From Caulobacter sp. 32-67-35 (GTDB taxonomy: Bacteria; Pseudomonadota; Alphaproteobacteria; Caulobacterales; Caulobacteraceae), in the NCBI GenBank assembly GCA_002280875.1, contig NCEV01000044.1:1-44385 (forward strand): a stretch of 44,385 bases of DNA, in the 5' to 3' direction. Within the stretch, counting starts at the first letter, position 1, and each line of letters starts with the position of its first letter. The notes beneath the pieces are model-generated. The model was not told where the DNA came from. It did no database searches and saw only the letters and a program-made list of their open reading frames with translations. Positions 25,564-31,853 of the stretch are shown in pieces. The position numbers and the translations under genes are program-made.

Positions 25564-26418
25564 TCACTCGGGCAAAGCCACGGCGCGGAAGGCCTTGGGA
25601 CGGAAACGGATTTGAATCTCCGGCCCCAACCGCATCGGTTCTCCATCGAGCAGGGCGGGAATCCGGCCGCCGGCCCACACCCGGCCGACGCGGCAGCGAC
25701 CCATGCTCACCGAAGGATCATCACGCCAGGTTCCGCTCAGCGCGCTGACCCCCAGGCGGAAGATCTCGATGGCGTTGGACGGATCGACGGCCGCCGCCTC
25801 CAGGGCCCGGTCGTCTTCGTCCAGGACCGTGGAGACCAGGGGGCACATCAGGGTCAGGGCTTCAGCCTTCTGCTTGGGTCGACCATCAAGGGTAAAGCGC
25901 AGGCGGCCTGAAAAGGCGCGGCGAAAGGCCCGCTGGGCGCGCAGGGCGGTCAGCCGGATCTGTCCGGCCCGCGCGGCCTCGCGGGCGTCCGCCCAAAGGG
26001 CGGGACTGCCCAGGATGGCGGCGACGAAGAACAGGCGTCCAGCCACCTCGCCGCCCGACACCATGCGCGGCGCGCCGTCCGTCAGGCAGGCCGCCATGGC
26101 CTCGGGCCACGAGCGCTCGCCGTAGAAGGCGCGAGGCAGCATGTTCATCGTCCCGCCGGGCAGGGGCGCGATGGGCGGGCCGTCGGGACCTGACATCTCC
26201 GCAGCGGCCCGGGCCGTGCCGTCGCCGGCGATGACAAAGACGGCGTCAGGATCGGAATCGATGACGCGGCGCAGGCAGGCGGCCAGATCGCCATCGGGCG
26301 TGTGCACCGTTCCGGCTACGCCCTGTTCAGCGAGAATGCGCTCGGCGATGGCCGGCGCATCGGCGCCAACTGATCCCGAAGCGGTGTTGGCGATAATTTC
26401 GACGCGACGCACGGGCAT
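25564..26418 (-). CDS. Diacylglycerol/sphingosine kinase-family lipid kinase
   Basis: The protein has 284 residues. The DAGK catalytic domain shows VEIIANTASGSV at the N-terminus, the GDGT nucleotide motif in VIAGDGTARAAAE and the second glycine motif PLPGGTMNMLPR, followed by the beta-sandwich C-terminal domain. It should phosphorylate a lipid hydroxyl with ATP. The ATG at 26418 touches GAGG, too close for a ribosome binding site; GTG 26412 has a six-base spacer and is probably the true start, giving 282 residues. A perfect GGAAC-N17-GTT promoter lies just upstream, so membrane-lipid modification appears to be part of the stress response. Confidence 0.85.
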   Translation of the reverse strand: MPVRRVEIIANTASGSVGADAPAIAERILAEQGVAGTVHTPDGDLAACLRRVIDSDPDAVFVIAGDGTARAAAEMSGPDGPPIAPLPGGTMNMLPRAFYGERSWPEAMAACLTDGAPRMVSGGEVAGRLFFVAAILGSPALWADAREAARAGQIRLTALRAQRAFRRAFSGRLRFTLDGRPKQKAEALTLMCPLVSTVLDEDDRALEAAAVDPSNAIEIFRLGVSALSGTWRDDPSVSMGRCRVGRVWAGGRIPALLDGEPMRLGPEIQIRFRPKAFRAVALPE

Positions 26419-26441
26419 CCTCGCTGCATGGGGAGTCGGTT

Positions 26442-26466
26442 AACGGCCAAGCTTTTCGGCGGTTCC
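26442..26466 (-). promoter_or_regulatory. GSR (EcfG/SigT-type) promoter of the lipid kinase operon
   Basis: On the minus strand GGAAC (26466-26462) is followed by exactly 17 bases and GTT (26444-26442), the published alphaproteobacterial EcfG consensus. Predicted transcription starts about 17 bases before the coding start. It is divergent from the site at 26479. Confidence 0.75.
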
Positions 26467-26478
26467 GAGCCTCACAAC

Positions 26479-26503
26479 GGAACCTTGCATACGGCGGGTC
26501 GTT
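26479..26503 (+). promoter_or_regulatory. GSR promoter of the glycine-zipper lipoprotein gene
   Basis: GGAAC (26479-26483), 17 bases, GTT (26501-26503), 34 bases before the ATG at 26538. It forms a back-to-back pair with the minus-strand site at 26442. Confidence 0.78.
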
Positions 26504-26537
26504 AGTCAGACCGGGATAGCTCGATGGGAAACCCACT

Positions 26538-26879
26538 ATGAAAATGACCATGATCGCCCTGCTGGGTGTCGGCTTGATGGCCACGGCCTGCACATCGACC
26601 GGCAATGTAGAACGTAATGCCGCCGGCGGCGCAGCGCTTGGCGCGCTCGCAGGCGCTGTGATCGGCAATAATGTGGGCAGCGGCAGCGCCAGCACGGGCG
26701 CAGCCATCGGCGCGGCCCTCGGCGGCACCGCTGGCGCCGTCAAGGGCTGCCGTGAAGACGGCGGTTGCGGCGCGAACACGGTCAATCGCCGCCAGTACTA
26801 CGATGAACGCGCGGGCCGCTATTACTATTACGACGCTGGCAGCGGCCGATACTTCTGGGAAGACGGTCGTCCCCGTTAG
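26538..26879 (+). CDS. Glycine-zipper lipoprotein
   Basis: The 113-residue protein has a lipoprotein signal (LLGVGLMATAC, lipidated Cys18). A glycine-zipper segment, AAGGAALGALAGAVIGNNVG, is continued by GAAIGAALGGTAGAVKG (about 29-69); this is the pattern of paired Gly-rich transmembrane helices. The tail is tyrosine-rich (RRQYYDERAGRYYYYDAGSG). It is probably an outer-membrane lipoprotein that can oligomerise. A GSR promoter lies directly upstream and a strong hairpin follows, so it is a single-gene stress-induced unit. OsmB/SlyB-type proteins have this design, but I do not recognise an exact family. Confidence 0.85.
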   Translation: MKMTMIALLGVGLMATACTSTGNVERNAAGGAALGALAGAVIGNNVGSGSASTGAAIGAALGGTAGAVKGCREDGGCGANTVNRRQYYDERAGRYYYYDAGSGRYFWEDGRPR

Positions 26880-26905
26880 GGAGCGATCGCGCCGATGAAA
26901 AACCC

Positions 26906-26938
26906 AAGGGGCGGCCGGCAGATTGCTGGTCGCCCCTT
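26906..26938 (+). terminator. Terminator of the glycine-zipper gene
   Basis: AAGGGGCG and CGCCCCTT pair as the outer stem, with CCGGC and GCTGG (one G-T pair) continuing inside. It begins 26 bases after the stop codon. Confidence 0.65.
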
Positions 26939-26965
26939 GTCATGTCCATCACACGGGGAGGCACT

Positions 26966-27418
26966 ATGACCATCAAGATGACTGTGGCGACGCTTGGCGC
27001 CGGGCTGATGCTCGCGGGCTGCGCTTCCGCGCCCTGGAGCGCGAGCCGCGCCGCGATAGAAACCCAGCCGCCGGCCTGCGCCGATTTCCAGGTTTCCATC
27101 TATTTTGAGCGGGACGAGGTGAAGGTGACGCGTGAGGCGCGATCGGTGCTGAACAGCGCCCGCACCATGGCGCGCGGCTGCAAGGTTGAGAAGGCTCGTG
27201 TTGTCGGCCTGGCTGACGCCGTCGGCGCGGCGGACGTCAATATGGATCTGTCCAGGGCGCGGGCGGTCTCGGTCACCAAGGCCCTGACCCGGGCGGGCTT
27301 TGGCCAGGTAGAGTTCGATGTCGCCGCGGCCGGGGATATCGGCGCAACAACCACAGCCGGGGCTTCCGCCCCGCTGCGCCGACGGGCCGATATCTTCTTT
27401 GACGTCAGCAAGCCCTGA
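26966..27418 (+). CDS. OmpA-family lipoprotein
   Basis: The 150-residue protein starts at ATG 26966 with GGGGAGG five bases upstream. The signal ends LMLAGC (lipidated Cys19). The remainder is an OmpA-like peptidoglycan-binding domain: VSIYFERDEVKVTREARSVL supplies the first strand and helix, and NMDLSRARAVSVTKAL is the helix that normally binds diaminopimelate. It would tether the outer membrane to the wall. The domain is short and its motifs are somewhat diverged. It may be expressed by read-through from the GSR promoter at 26479 or from an unrecognised promoter. Confidence 0.8.
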   Translation: MTIKMTVATLGAGLMLAGCASAPWSASRAAIETQPPACADFQVSIYFERDEVKVTREARSVLNSARTMARGCKVEKARVVGLADAVGAADVNMDLSRARAVSVTKALTRAGFGQVEFDVAAAGDIGATTTAGASAPLRRRADIFFDVSKP

Positions 27419-27437
27419 GGCCTGAAACGCCGAGACG

Positions 27438-27464
27438 CCCGCCCTGGTCAGCTGGGGCGGGTTT
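27438..27464 (+). terminator. Terminator of the OmpA-like gene
   Basis: CCCGCCC and GGGCGGG form a 7-base stem around a 10-base loop and are followed by TTT. On the minus strand the same hairpin lies at the likely 3' side of the predicted sRNA. Confidence 0.6.
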
Positions 27465-27479
27465 CCTGCCGGGCGCATG

Positions 27480-27582
27480 ACGTGCGGGCTTGAAGCCGTG
27501 ACGGAAAAGGGGGGAGGGGTGCGGAGGCGGCAGGCTGGCTTGCGCCGGCCTCAAGTCGGGGGGGCGTCGCCGCCTCCGCACT
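27480..27582 (-). ncRNA. gsrN: Predicted GSR-dependent sRNA, GsrN-like
   Basis: An exact EcfG promoter (27613-27589) points left into DNA with no convincing reading frame. The predicted start, about 27581, coincides with the first base of a perfect 12-base stem: GTGCGGAGGCGG (27581-27570) pairs with CCGCCTCCGCAC (27530-27519). The loop contains a run of seven C, and a second C-rich tract, CCCCTCCCCCC, follows the stem immediately. GsrN of Caulobacter is a SigT-dependent sRNA with exposed C-rich loops, and I recall that it is usually encoded near phyR-nepR-ecfG. The 3' end is uncertain and could extend to the hairpin at 27464-27438. Start, stem and C tracts are seen; identity with GsrN is inference. 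Confidence 0.6.
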
Positions 27583-27588
27583 GAGGAA

Positions 27589-27613
27589 AACGCGATCTCC
27601 AAAAGCTGGTTCC
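27589..27613 (-). promoter_or_regulatory. GSR promoter of the predicted sRNA
   Basis: On the minus strand GGAAC (27613-27609), exactly 17 bases, then GTT (27591-27589). No protein-coding gene lies within reach downstream. Confidence 0.75.
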
Positions 27614-27670
27614 CGGCGGCGGCGATTTTTTTTTGCGGCCGGTGGAAATCGCCGTCCGCCTGGGCGCCAT

Positions 27671-27695
27671 GGAACAGTCGGGGGTCGCAAACGTT
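27671..27695 (+). promoter_or_regulatory. GSR promoter of the small membrane protein genes
   Basis: GGAAC (27671-27675), 17 bases, GTT (27693-27695), about 50 bases before the GTG at 27744. It is divergent from the sRNA promoter at 27589. Confidence 0.75.
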
Positions 27696-27743
27696 GTTCT
27701 GGCGCGGCCAAGCAGGGCCGCATTCCAACCAAGAGAGCACGTC

Positions 27744-27932
27744 GTGATCCGGAGCTACCAGGCTGAACATGGCGGAACGGTTTTCTACGCGGCGCCCAGC
27801 CGGCGTCAGAAGACGAGGCGCACGCGCCTCATGGCGCTGATGGTGATCACGGTCGTCGCCGCGTCGGCCGGCGTTGTCCACAACCTCAATGCGCGATCCA
27901 TGCCGATCGAGATGCTCGCGCCGACCCAGTGA
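27744..27932 (+). CDS. Small single-pass membrane protein, unknown function
   Basis: The GTG at 27744 is preceded by AAGAGAG and by an exact GSR promoter. The 62-residue product has a basic stretch (SRRQKTRRTR, about 19-28) followed by one hydrophobic segment (LMALMVITVVAASAGVV, about 29-45), so it probably inserts with its N-terminus in the cytosol. I do not recognise a family. The next small gene begins 19 bases downstream, suggesting a two-gene stress operon of tiny membrane proteins. Confidence 0.55.
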   Translation: MIRSYQAEHGGTVFYAAPSRRQKTRRTRLMALMVITVVAASAGVVHNLNARSMPIEMLAPTQ

Positions 27933-27951
27933 CTTTCTGAAGGAGAGCGAT

Positions 27952-28203
27952 ATGCCCGCCGACACGGATCATCCTGCCCCACGCCTCAACGCCACGCGCG
28001 CGCGTCAGGGACGTCGGGGACAGCACATCTTCTGGATCCTGATCATTTCAACGGTACTGGCCGCCGTCGCGCTGTTTGGCGCCTGGGGCTTCCGGTCCGG
28101 GGATCTGGCGTCGGTCGAGCAGAACACAGGCGTGGACACCCCCGCCGAGGCCAGCCGCTACAACACCGAACAGTCTCCCGTGCGCCAGGCGCCCGCGAAC
28201 TAG
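27952..28203 (+). CDS. Small single-pass membrane protein, unknown function
   Basis: ATG 27952 has AAGGAGAG upstream. The 83-residue product has a basic N-terminus (NATRARQGRRGQ), a membrane segment (IFWILIISTVLAAVALFGAW, about 26-45) and a polar, probably periplasmic tail rich in Ser, Glu, Pro and Gln. It follows another tiny membrane protein gene under a GSR promoter and is convergent with phyR across a perfect terminator. No family is recognised. Confidence 0.7.
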   Translation: MPADTDHPAPRLNATRARQGRRGQHIFWILIISTVLAAVALFGAWGFRSGDLASVEQNTGVDTPAEASRYNTEQSPVRQAPAN

Positions 28204-28267
28204 AGCGTTTCTGCATCCGCTGACAGAGCGGTCTGGCGCGGAAGCGCTGTGGCCAGTCCCATACCAA

Positions 28268-28293
28268 AACGGCCGCCCTCTCGGGCGGCCGTT
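28268..28293. terminator. Bidirectional terminator between the small genes and phyR
   Basis: AACGGCCGCCC and GGGCGGCCGTT form a perfect 11-base stem with a TCTC loop. On the minus strand it ends in TTTT, 20 bases beyond the phyR stop codon. Confidence 0.8.
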
Positions 28294-28312
28294 GACGTTC
28301 TGGAGGCCCTGA

Positions 28313-29113
28313 TCAGGCGGCCTTGCGGGTGCGCCTGGGATGGAAGAACAGGGCCTGGCCGATCGCCGCCTTCACCGTTTCCGGCTGGAAGGGCTTGGTG
28401 ATCAGGAAGGTCGGCTCCGGGCGCTCGCCGGTCAGCAAACGCTCGGGGAAGGCGGTGATGAAGATCACGGGCACGTCGAGACGGGCCAGGATGTCCTTGA
28501 CGGCATCGATGCCAGACGAGCCGTCGGCCAGCTGGATGTCGGCCAGCACCAGACCCGGGGTCTTGCGAGCGACCGCTTCCACGGCCTCGCCGCGCGTGGC
28601 GGCGATGTCGGTGACCTCGTGGCCCAGTTCGCGAACCAGGGCTTCGATGTCGGCGGCGATGACCGGTTCGTCCTCGATGATGAGCACGGTAGTGGCCAGT
28701 TCAGCGTCGATCTCGGTCTGGGCCTCGGAGATCAGGCGTTCGATGTCGCCAAATTCGCAATCGAGAATCTGGGCGGCTTCGGTCGGCGTGAAGCCTTCCA
28801 GGGCGGTGAGCAGGAAGGCCTGGCGAGATCGCGGCGCGATCCGCATCAGCCGTTGCGTGGCGTCGTCAGCGGCGGAACCGCTGTCGTCGTGACGCGCTTC
28901 AAGTTGGGCGCCTGTGGAAAGCCAGATGGCATGGAAAACGCGATAGAGCGCGACGCGGGGCGACAGGTCGGCGTCCAGCGAACGCTCCCCGGCGGCCAGC
29001 GCTTCCAGGGCGACCCGGACATAATGGTCGCCAGTATTCTGATCGCCAGTAAGGGCGCGGGCGTAGCGACGGATATAAGGTAGATGTGGCGCCAGCCGAG
29101 CAAGAAGACTCAT
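28313..29113 (-). CDS. phyR: GSR anti-anti-sigma response regulator PhyR
   Basis: The 266-residue length is that of Caulobacter PhyR. Residues 1-135 form a sigma-like domain resembling EcfG sigma-2 and sigma-4 (IRRYARALTGDQNTGDHYVR; APRSRQAFLLTALEGFTPTE). Residues 140-260 form a receiver with Asp192 in VLADIQLADGSSGID, Thr220 and Lys240. When phosphorylated, the sigma-like domain is released and captures NepR, freeing SigT. ATG 29113 follows GGGAGGGG. The gene is divergent from nepR-sigT-phyK and has its own EcfG promoter, giving positive feedback. Confidence 0.97.
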   Translation of the reverse strand: MSLLARLAPHLPYIRRYARALTGDQNTGDHYVRVALEALAAGERSLDADLSPRVALYRVFHAIWLSTGAQLEARHDDSGSAADDATQRLMRIAPRSRQAFLLTALEGFTPTEAAQILDCEFGDIERLISEAQTEIDAELATTVLIIEDEPVIAADIEALVRELGHEVTDIAATRGEAVEAVARKTPGLVLADIQLADGSSGIDAVKDILARLDVPVIFITAFPERLLTGERPEPTFLITKPFQPETVKAAIGQALFFHPRRTRKAA

Positions 29114-29187
29114 GACCCCTCCCGATGCGGTGTCTTCGTGAAAAACGCGATCCAATGGCCAAGCTGGGCCATTCGATCAGGGTCTTA

Positions 29188-29212
29188 AACGCCGCCTTAT
29201 CCAGCGGGTTCC
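29188..29212 (-). promoter_or_regulatory. GSR promoter of phyR
   Basis: On the minus strand GGAAC (29212-29208), 17 bases, GTT (29190-29188), upstream of the phyR ATG at 29113. Confidence 0.85.
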
Positions 29213-29251: not shown

Positions 29252-29276
29252 GGAACCCGATACGGAAAACCGCGTT
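29252..29276 (+). promoter_or_regulatory. GSR promoter of nepR-sigT-phyK
   Basis: GGAAC (29252-29256), 17 bases, GTT (29274-29276), 65 bases before the nepR ATG. It is back to back with the phyR promoter. Confidence 0.87.
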
Positions 29277-29340: not shown

Positions 29341-29526
29341 ATGATCGAACACGTACCCATGGATGATCACCGCAAAGGCGCTGCGGCGCTCGACGAAGCT
29401 CGCCTGCGTCAGCAGGCTATTGGCGTGAAGCTGCGCCAGCTGTTCGACGAGGTTGTCAACGAGCAGGTTCCCGACGAATTTCTCGAAATTCTGCGCAAGG
29501 CCGAGAAGCCTGCAGGCGAGGAATGA
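29341..29526 (+). CDS. nepR: Anti-sigma factor NepR
   Basis: The 61-residue protein contains the NepR core, IGVKLRQLFDEVVNEQVPDE followed by FLEIL, two amphipathic helices that clamp across the sigma-2 and sigma-4 domains of SigT or across phosphorylated PhyR. I start at ATG 29341 (ATG 29359 is possible). Its stop overlaps the sigT ATG as ATGA, so anti-sigma and sigma are translationally coupled. Confidence 0.95.
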   Translation: MIEHVPMDDHRKGAAALDEARLRQQAIGVKLRQLFDEVVNEQVPDEFLEILRKAEKPAGEE

Positions 29527-30140
29527 GCATGACGGACACCGAAGCTCAGGTCGGCCGCTCGCCGTTCGACCCGCCGCGCGACAATGCTTTCAAGCGCGAG
29601 CTGGTGACCCTGATCCCGCATCTGCGCGCCTTTGCGCGCACCCTGACCGGTGATCCCACCGCGGCCGACGATCTGGCGCAGGACGCCATGATGAAGGCCT
29701 GGGACGCCCGCGCCAGCTTCCAGCTTGGCACGAACATGAAGGCCTGGACCTTCATGATCCTGCGCAACCAGTTCTATTCGGAAAAACGCCGCTCCTGGCG
29801 TCAGAGCCAGCTTGATCAGGAGGCCGCCGAGCGGACCCTGGTCGCGGTCGATGATCCCGAGGCGCCCGTGGCGCTGGACGAACTGCGCATGAGCCTGGGC
29901 ATGCTTCCCGCCGAACAGCGTGAAGCCCTCATTCTCGTCGGCGCTGGCGGCTTTGCCTATGAGGAAGCCGCAGTGATCTGCGGCTGCGCCGTGGGCACCG
30001 TCAAAAGCCGCGTCAGCCGCGCCCGTCGGGCGCTGCAGGCGATCCTGGAAGCCGGCGCCTATGACCGGGATGGCAGATCGGCGGGCGATGCGATGGGTTC
30101 GATTCTGGCCGACGCGGAGCGATTGAGCTCCTTAAGGTGA
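29523..30140 (+). CDS. sigT: ECF sigma factor SigT (EcfG, ECF15 group)
   Basis: The 205-residue protein has sigma-2 (LIPHLRAFARTLTGDPTAAD, then LAQDAMMKAWDARASFQLGT with a WTFMILRN helix) and sigma-4 (MLPAEQREALILVGAGGFAY, then YEEAAVICGCAVGTVKSRVS). It directs RNA polymerase to GGAAC-N17-GTT promoters, of which seven exact copies occur in this window, including its own. ATG 29529 within the same frame is an alternative start. It is co-translated with nepR upstream and overlaps phyK downstream. Confidence 0.96.
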   Translation: MSMTDTEAQVGRSPFDPPRDNAFKRELVTLIPHLRAFARTLTGDPTAADDLAQDAMMKAWDARASFQLGTNMKAWTFMILRNQFYSEKRRSWRQSQLDQEAAERTLVAVDDPEAPVALDELRMSLGMLPAEQREALILVGAGGFAYEEAAVICGCAVGTVKSRVSRARRALQAILEAGAYDRDGRSAGDAMGSILADAERLSSLR

Positions 30141-31837
30141 GACCTTTCAAAAGCCGGGGCGCGGAGGCTGTAACCTCGATCCGCGTCCGCCTGGCGGCGG
30201 CGCTGGTCGTCGCCCTCCTGCCGGTCCTGTTGCTGGGCGGCCTGCAGTCGCTGTTTGCGTTCCGCGCCGAGGCGGACCTGCGCCGCCAGAGTCTTGAGCT
30301 GGCGGCGGGTCGCAGCGCGGCCATCGCCCATGCGCGCATCGCGGCGGCAGGGGTTCTTCTGCAGACCCTTGGCCCGGGCTCGGTAGGCCTGGAATGCGCG
30401 CAGCGCCTGGCGGATGTGCGGGCGCGGCTGCCCGGCTACGCCAATCTTGTCCGGTTCGACGCCCGGGGCCGGGTTGTCTGCGCCGCCGCGACGACACCGC
30501 CCGATCCCACACGCGCCGGCCGGGCCTGGTTTCGCGAGCTGGACGCCGGCTCTGATCTGGTCGTCGCCAGCGCGCCCGGCGTGATCTATGCGACGGAGCC
30601 CTCGGTGCTGGCCGCGGTGCGGGCCTCTGGTCCGGGCGACAAGTTCGACGGGGCCATGGTCGCCGTGCTGACCCTGCGCAGCCTCCGCCTCGAAACCGCC
30701 AACCGGTTCATGCCAAACGGCGCCGAGATCGCCCTGGCCGACTCGCAAGGCGTGGTGTTTACCTCGACCGATCCCAGCGCCTTTGACGCCCCGCCCCCAG
30801 GCTGGCGCGCCAAGGCCAATGAGCGCGGCGCAGTGCTGTGGTCGGGCAAGGATCGCAACAAGCGCAGCCGGGCCTATTCGGCGGCGCCCCTGACCGAAAG
30901 CGGCGTCTTCGTCCTGCTCTCGGCGCCGGCGCCGGGCCTGCTGTCCTGGGCCTGGATCAATCCGATCTCGCGCCTGATCCTGCCGCTCCTGGCCTTCGGC
31001 CTGGCCCTGGGGGCGGTGCTTTACGCGGCCGAGCGCGCCGTGATCCGCTGGATCATCTATCTGCAGCGCATTGCGGCGATCTATGCCAGGGGTCGCTTTA
31101 CCGTACGGCCCCTGCAGGCCGAGCGGGCGCCGCCCGAGATCCGCGAACTGGCCGCCACCCTCGACGACATGGCCGGGGCGATCGTGGCGCGCGATGCGTC
31201 CCTGATGGACAGCCTGGCGGAGAAAGACGCGCTGATGCGCGAAATCCATCACCGGGTGAAGAACAACCTGCAGATCATCACCTCGCTGCTCAACATGCAG
31301 CAGCGGGCCCTGACCGATCCGGCCGCCAAGGCGGCGATGAACGATACGCGCCAGCGGATCACGGCCCTGGCCCAGATCTACCGCGCGCTCTATCAGGGAC
31401 CCGACCTCAAGCGGGTGGATCTGCGGCCTTTCATGGAAGAGCTGACAGCCCAGCTGCTGGCCGGCGAAATGTCCGGATCAGGGGCGGTGCGCACCGAGGT
31501 CCACGCCGATCCCCTGGTCATCGACCCCGACCGCCTGGCGCCGATCGCCCTGTTCGCCGTTGAGGCCATCACCAACGCCCAGAAGCACGCCTTTGCCGAA
31601 CGGGGCGGGATTCTGTCGGTGAACTTCCATGTGCGCGGCGATGAAGCCGAACTGTCCATCGGCGATGATGGACCGGGCGCCAATCAGGGCCCGGGCGAAG
31701 GCGTCGGGCGAACCCTGATGAGCGCTTTCGCGCGACAGCTTCGCGGCAAGGTGACCTTCGAAACCAGCGACCAGGGCGGCCTGCTTGTGCGCCTGGTGTT
31801 CCCCACGCCACAAGCGCCGCCTTCGGCCGGAACCTAG
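30137..31837 (+). CDS. phyK: Membrane sensor histidine kinase PhyK
   Basis: The 566-residue protein starts at GTG 30137, overlapping the sigT stop. A membrane segment at about 17-43, a periplasmic sensor of roughly 230 residues and a second membrane segment at about 278-300 are followed by a HAMP-like linker. The HisKA_2 transmitter has phospho-acceptor histidines 371/372 in EIHHRVKNNLQIITSLL, and the ATPase has N-box EAITNAQKHA and G-box DDGPGANQGPGEGVG. It is the kinase for PhyR in Caulobacter. Its last codons overlap an EcfG promoter serving the next gene. Confidence 0.95.
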   Translation: MRPFKSRGAEAVTSIRVRLAAALVVALLPVLLLGGLQSLFAFRAEADLRRQSLELAAGRSAAIAHARIAAAGVLLQTLGPGSVGLECAQRLADVRARLPGYANLVRFDARGRVVCAAATTPPDPTRAGRAWFRELDAGSDLVVASAPGVIYATEPSVLAAVRASGPGDKFDGAMVAVLTLRSLRLETANRFMPNGAEIALADSQGVVFTSTDPSAFDAPPPGWRAKANERGAVLWSGKDRNKRSRAYSAAPLTESGVFVLLSAPAPGLLSWAWINPISRLILPLLAFGLALGAVLYAAERAVIRWIIYLQRIAAIYARGRFTVRPLQAERAPPEIRELAATLDDMAGAIVARDASLMDSLAEKDALMREIHHRVKNNLQIITSLLNMQQRALTDPAAKAAMNDTRQRITALAQIYRALYQGPDLKRVDLRPFMEELTAQLLAGEMSGSGAVRTEVHADPLVIDPDRLAPIALFAVEAITNAQKHAFAERGGILSVNFHVRGDEAELSIGDDGPGANQGPGEGVGRTLMSAFARQLRGKVTFETSDQGGLLVRLVFPTPQAPPSAGT

Positions 31838-31853
31838 CTTCGCCGGGGGCGTT
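31829..31853 (+). promoter_or_regulatory. GSR promoter of the entericidin-like gene
   Basis: GGAAC (31829-31833), 17 bases, GTT (31851-31853). The -35 box lies inside the last codons of phyK, 54 bases before the ATG at 31907. Confidence 0.8.

Follow-up and report, generated by a model that had tools for sequence, protein, structure and literature searches.

What does a stress promoter transcribe when it points into DNA in which no convincing gene is apparent? Such a promoter, an exact GGAAC-N17-GTT match of the EcfG/SigT type, lies at 27613-27589 on the minus strand of a 44,385-nucleotide stretch of Caulobacter sp. 32-67-35 (contig NCEV01000044.1; this whole stretch is hereafter the window). 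The original prediction, reasoning from structure and location, proposed that this promoter drives GsrN while leaving room for a distinct small RNA. We now consider it nearly certain that the minus-strand element is gsrN, the general-stress small RNA of the Caulobacteraceae, with which a reading of a regulatory RNA made from bare sequence is confirmed.

The general-stress locus and its promoters

In Alphaproteobacteria, stress leads PhyR to release the sigma factor EcfG/SigT from NepR. The three genes lie close to the element: phyR at 28313-29155 on the minus strand (PF22029, PF22233, PF00072), nepR at 29341-29526 on the plus strand (PF18557) and, behind it, an ecfG/sigT-type sigma factor gene (29529-30140, plus strand; PF04542, PF08281). 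The window holds seven exact GGAAC-N17-GTT sites where 0.57 are expected, a number reached in none of 100 shuffles. In addition to the leftward site of gsrN, these include the divergent stress promoter also foreseen by the original prediction (27671-27695, plus strand), ahead of a small open reading frame at 27744-27932; a divergent pair (29188-29212, minus; 29252-29276, plus) ahead of phyR and nepR-ecfG; a second divergent pair (26442-26466, minus; 26479-26503, plus) ahead of a diacylglycerol-kinase-like gene (PF00781) and a glycine-zipper gene; and a site at the end of a histidine kinase gene (31829-31853, plus). Judging from these sites, the phyR-nepR-ecfG locus looks to be under the control of its own sigma factor.

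Downstream of gsrN, and convergent with it, lies an OmpA-family gene (26966-27418, plus strand; PF00691). Two minus-strand reading frames cross the gsrN region (27405-27965 and 27448-27732) and neither has a Pfam match above cut-off (one weak match, to DUF4689, scores 18.5 bits against 27), in agreement with the earlier statement that no convincing gene is found there. On the plus strand, the frame at 27744-27932 and another at 27952-28203 each encode a hydrophobic stretch and lack a Pfam match; the latter appears to be part of the conserved neighbourhood because tblastn finds relatives of it in 73 of the 103 named loci among the matches listed. A candidate ZMP/ZTP riboswitch at 27611-27672 (plus strand) scored 21.4 bits against a cut-off of 39 and was set aside as a chance match.

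The named loci come from a scan that returned 119 stretches among the matches listed. Twelve of these yielded no module to our script, namely 11 from other or unclassified bacteria by title and L124, from a Caulobacterales genome; four more (L055, L057, L103 and L130), chance hits in other taxa despite a module, were left out, giving 103. Among these listed matches, PhyR is encoded upstream on the same strand as gsrN in 90 of the 103 loci, always in one arrangement, and an OmpA-family gene lies downstream and convergent in 61. The remaining 13 have no PhyR, NepR or EcfG in the stretch covered, which in several cases stops close by. A C. vibrioides genome (L036) is one of the 13, which agrees with the reported position of gsrN, distal to phyR in C. 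crescentus and near it in most Caulobacteraceae (PMC5869019). The promoter itself is widely retained: it is exact in 29 of 30 module-bearing loci found with RF01529 (the window counted, the rest from the best 30 of 208 genomes) and in 49 of 68 loci of the genus, or 61 of 68 with a relaxed motif.

Identity, fold and conservation of the RNA

An Rfam scan of the whole window gave a sole match at the gathering threshold, to RF01529 ('CC3552') at 27577-27515 on the minus strand (60 bits against a cut-off of 50, E 3.1e-07). The same element is the one RF01529 match in the 4.1-Mb assembly, which is 96.31% complete, and among 14 control genomes a match occurs in C. vibrioides only. Among the papers listed from the open literature (main texts) we found none tying CC3552 to R0081 or GsrN. 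From coordinates and sequence features, we conclude that RF01529 corresponds to the published GsrN. When the copy of the relative G130 (L007) is numbered from the G of GCGAAGG, eight bases 3' of the promoter GTT, positions 53 and 54 are C and T, position 64 is T, there are six C in the loop and the terminator hairpin ends at nucleotide 106, for a length of 106 nt; this numbering recovers what is described for GsrN of C. crescentus, with its ends at C53, T54 and T64, a loop that has six C in tandem, and a deletion allele from which nucleotides 59-106, terminator included, are gone (PMC5869019). The katG leader of G130 (L257) also holds GTCGGGG, the counterpart of the published GsrN target GUCGGGG (PMC5869019). 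A little-described Rfam entry is now tied to a studied regulator, and the covariance-model match, this identity, the promoter, the locus and the fold together make the minus-strand element an additional member of a published family, bearing out the GsrN proposal.

The 5' module (RF01529, our own 5'-module model R1 and the folds) spans 63 nt, 27581-27519 on the minus strand, and consists of a stem, a loop and an inner hairpin. The stem was predicted to be perfect and 12 bases long; it is indeed perfect but counts 13 pairs (27581-27569 with 27531-27519). Similarly, transcription had been placed at the first stem base, 27581, which is near the mark, but the start mapped in C. crescentus, transferred by homology, makes 27579 the more likely +1. 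The 18-nt loop, GACG-C7-GACTTGA (27551-27568), carries the run of seven C noted originally and corresponds to the target-pairing part in C. crescentus (PMC5869019). In the inner hairpin (27533-27550), six of seven consensus pairs show compensatory changes, and the window copy has one C-A mismatch. Behind the stem follows the second C-rich tract of the original prediction, CCCCTCCCCCC and then TTTT (27519-27505), where the diverged 3' half begins. The predicted folds are unusually stable, with z -4.23 for 27480-27581 and -4.74 for 27515-27581, none of 200 shuffles being as stable in either case. R1 gives the window copy, which is itself among the 79 rows that make up this model, 86.2 bits, inside the 81.6-90.8 span of 19 genomes of the genus.

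These rows were obtained from 138 distinct modules, which formed 82 clusters, three with misplaced stems being left out. In the 79 aligned modules, 12 of 19 pairs are changed on both sides and 98.6% of cells are paired, against 35-55% in controls with slid partners; compensatory cells number 107, against a shuffled mean of 27.4 and with none of 500 shuffles as high. The stem in syntenic DNA of relatives therefore covaries, as had been suggested for checking. Row finding used the outer stem and part of the loop, leaving the inner hairpin unused, so conservation of outer stem and loop is partly built in; in particular, the script demanded C3+GACTTGA and a stem of at least 8 pairs, and the named scan demanded the promoter plus CCCCGACTTGA, so the near-invariance of CCCCGACTTGA and the outer-stem pairing are partly so by construction.

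The named set and the unnamed sets overlap (L139 and G227, for example). The RF01529-found set comprises 31 loci, the window and the best 30 of 208 genomes, of which the script missed L030; the genus set comprises 73 blastn loci, of which it missed L203, L219, L223, L224 and L225, leaving 68. R1 recovers the module in all seven Caulobacteraceae loci missed by the script (these six and L124); none of the 15 chance loci (14 titled as other taxa, one as an unclassified bacterium) yields it. The seven recovered loci, which stand outside the alignment, always keep a C tract with GAC behind it, and in six of them the TTGA that comes next is altered; firm conservation can therefore be claimed for the C tract and its flank only.

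RF01529 matches 208 of 299 genomes in a Caulobacteraceae sample, 201 of them above cut-off, and at E 0.001 gives no match in the other 91. In the order sample it matches 52 of 299 genomes, all Caulobacteraceae, and in the class sample R1 matches 3 of 385, only in the family of the window; under these strict filters, no match of RF01529 or R1 fell outside the Caulobacteraceae in either sample. Given the filters, and because only Caulobacteraceae sequences went into R1, diverged GsrN-like RNAs such as those proposed for Rhizobiaceae (PMC5869019) would escape. Three genomes of the genus labelled g3 (G151, G155 and G159) have a second RF01529 match below cut-off, at 35-37 bits, possibly a diverged paralogue.

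A 3' half without the usual linker and terminator

With 27420-27640 as the query, blastn gives a match for 73 of the 75 genus genomes, and in most of them the shared block stops within a few bases of the stem. That the 3' half differs from the usual GsrN had been overlooked in the original prediction. In typical copies an intrinsic terminator begins 17-30 nt 3' of the stem. A detector searching within 120 nt 3' of the stem found one in 29 of 30 loci of the RF01529 set (from the best 30 of 208 genomes), the exception being the window, and in 99 of 107 loci of the named set among the matches listed. The other eight named loci, again among those listed, are the four chance hits, L045, where the stretch ends too early, L142, where a hairpin is present and was rejected by the detector, and L139 and L140, which correspond to G227 and G257. 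In the genus set a terminator was detected in 63 of 68 loci and, of the five added loci, in L203 and L223 but not in L219 (G296), L224 (G188) or L225 (G212). Across the genus it is thus found in 65 of 73 loci and not found in eight: the window, G257, G101, G121, G227, G296, G188 and G212. G121 retains a recognisable linker before a decayed hairpin. In G296, G188 and G212, where no terminator was found, the loop is altered after the C tract and GAC, and these lineages may have a different target-pairing part.

In the window, a consensus scan of both strands of 26400-28320 found no terminator-like site. A hairpin at 27438-27461, between the convergent gsrN and OmpA-like gene, is followed by TTTCCT on the plus strand and by a poor T tract on the minus strand; the fold of 27420-27475 is stable on the plus strand (z -2.83) and ordinary on the minus strand (z -0.16). 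In a FastTree tree built on PhyR plus EcfG of 23 genomes (22 selected relatives in addition to the window, with all eight terminator-less ones among them), the eight copies take up four positions: one shared by the window, G101, G121 and G257 (support 0.96), one by G188 and G212, one held by G296, and one, weakly placed, by G227. Before the three added loci were included the tree suggested two terminator losses, and afterwards four. We did not find terminator-less variation of gsrN described in the open literature covered (main texts).

The missing terminator invites other readings of the element. Instead of a free RNA, it could be a structured leader or attenuator at the 5' end of the transcript of some minus-strand gene farther downstream: no terminator was found in the group of the window, and in G101 and G121, where the OmpA-like gene was not found in the stretch, the next gene after gsrN, on the same strand, is the diacylglycerol-kinase-like one. 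However, two plus-strand genes separate gsrN from that gene in the window, a GGAAC-N17-GTT site of its own serves the gene (26466-26442, minus strand; likewise in G101 and G121), and in C. crescentus GsrN exists as a free RNA (PMC5869019), which makes this highly improbable. Alternatively, gsrN might be decaying in the lineage of the window, as the absent 3' module and the mismatched inner-hairpin pair could suggest, together with the lower R1 scores of the loop-altered, terminator-less copies of G296, G188 and G212 (65.6, 61.2 and 45.8 bits). Against this stand an exact promoter, a perfect stem, a loop like that of relatives and a module score well within the range of the genus, and we give gene loss only a very slight chance. 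Finally, a distinct C-rich small RNA merely similar to GsrN would account for the unlike 3' half but has next to no likelihood, since relatives show the same 5' module, promoter and neighbourhood and the largely complete genome holds no other RF01529 match; with that match and a covarying stem, the distinct RNA allowed for originally is not needed.

Proposed working and comparison with known systems

If the element is gsrN, as we hold, its working can be sketched from C. crescentus, where the sigma factor SigT makes GsrN as a free RNA, the loop pairs with G-rich mRNA stretches, and endonucleolytic cleavage near nucleotide 53 leaves a stable 5' isoform (PMC5869019). By analogy we infer that sigma dependence, pairing and processing of this type also hold in the organism of the window. 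Under stress, PhyR would release EcfG/SigT from NepR, and the freed sigma factor would transcribe gsrN leftward from its promoter; folding would expose the C-rich loop, whose pairing with G-rich mRNA stretches would raise or lower expression. Because the usual linker and terminator are missing, the transcript probably continues towards the convergent OmpA-like gene, and this run-on RNA would probably be cut or trimmed back to the stable, active 5' module. A bolder version, which we regard as tentative and rather unlikely, is that in several Caulobacter lineages a terminator-less GsrN is the 5' half cleaved from a long run-on transcript, either antisense to the OmpA-like gene (the window, G257) or leading into the diacylglycerol-kinase-like stress gene (G101, G121), such that one stress promoter would provide a trans-acting small RNA and a cis-acting extension.

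Pairing with the katG leader has been shown for GsrN in C. crescentus (PMC5869019). The katG leader of the window genome matches the loop over 6 nt, and 377 of 500 shuffles are as good; the C. crescentus-like leader L257 matches over 7 nt (16 of 500 shuffles as good), as does L258 (55 of 500). At least 7 bases complementary to the loop occur in 7 of 28 katG leaders, against a shuffled mean of 4.4 and maximum of 9, where stretches were counted from the start of the tblastn match and some therefore contain coding sequence. The 28 leaders come from 35 katG stretches, L233, L237, L238 and L241 being omitted for short flanks and L259-L261 unused. katG as a conserved target is not counted as support, and in the window genome a katG target is not supported by sequence. 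As to katG itself, the N-terminal part of the gene in the window genome (L227) shares 56% identity with its G130 counterpart across 98 query residues, and no match to the query of this comparison came up in 21 of the 75 genus genomes; the genus may hold different katG lineages.

Set beside the Rfam model, the window copy matches RF01529 over the 5' half and leaves 43 of 106 model positions, the 3' half, unmatched. With GsrN of C. crescentus (CCNA_R0081; eLife 2018, PMC5869019) it has in common the promoter type, the 5' stem, the C-rich loop and the inner hairpin, and its neighbourhood is that given for most Caulobacteraceae (PMC5869019). It differs from the GsrN described there in lying near phyR instead of distal to it, in having seven C in the loop instead of six, in the unsupported katG site, and in lacking a detected 3' linker and intrinsic terminator (PMC5869019). 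Within a known, characterised small RNA family, the lack of the terminator in several lineages amounts to a modest variation. The closest parallel is the laboratory allele lacking nucleotides 59-106, which rescued peroxide survival in C. crescentus while giving a run-on RNA of about 200 nt (PMC5869019); given that linker and terminator are dispensable for this function, we do not take them as defining GsrN. That allele, like the window copy, keeps the 5' module without linker or terminator, but it is engineered whereas the window copy is natural and its behaviour predicted. In the terminator-less copies, found in four places of the tree, the published 3' deletion (PMC5869019) has its natural equivalents, with which one can test whether selection acts on the 5' module by itself.
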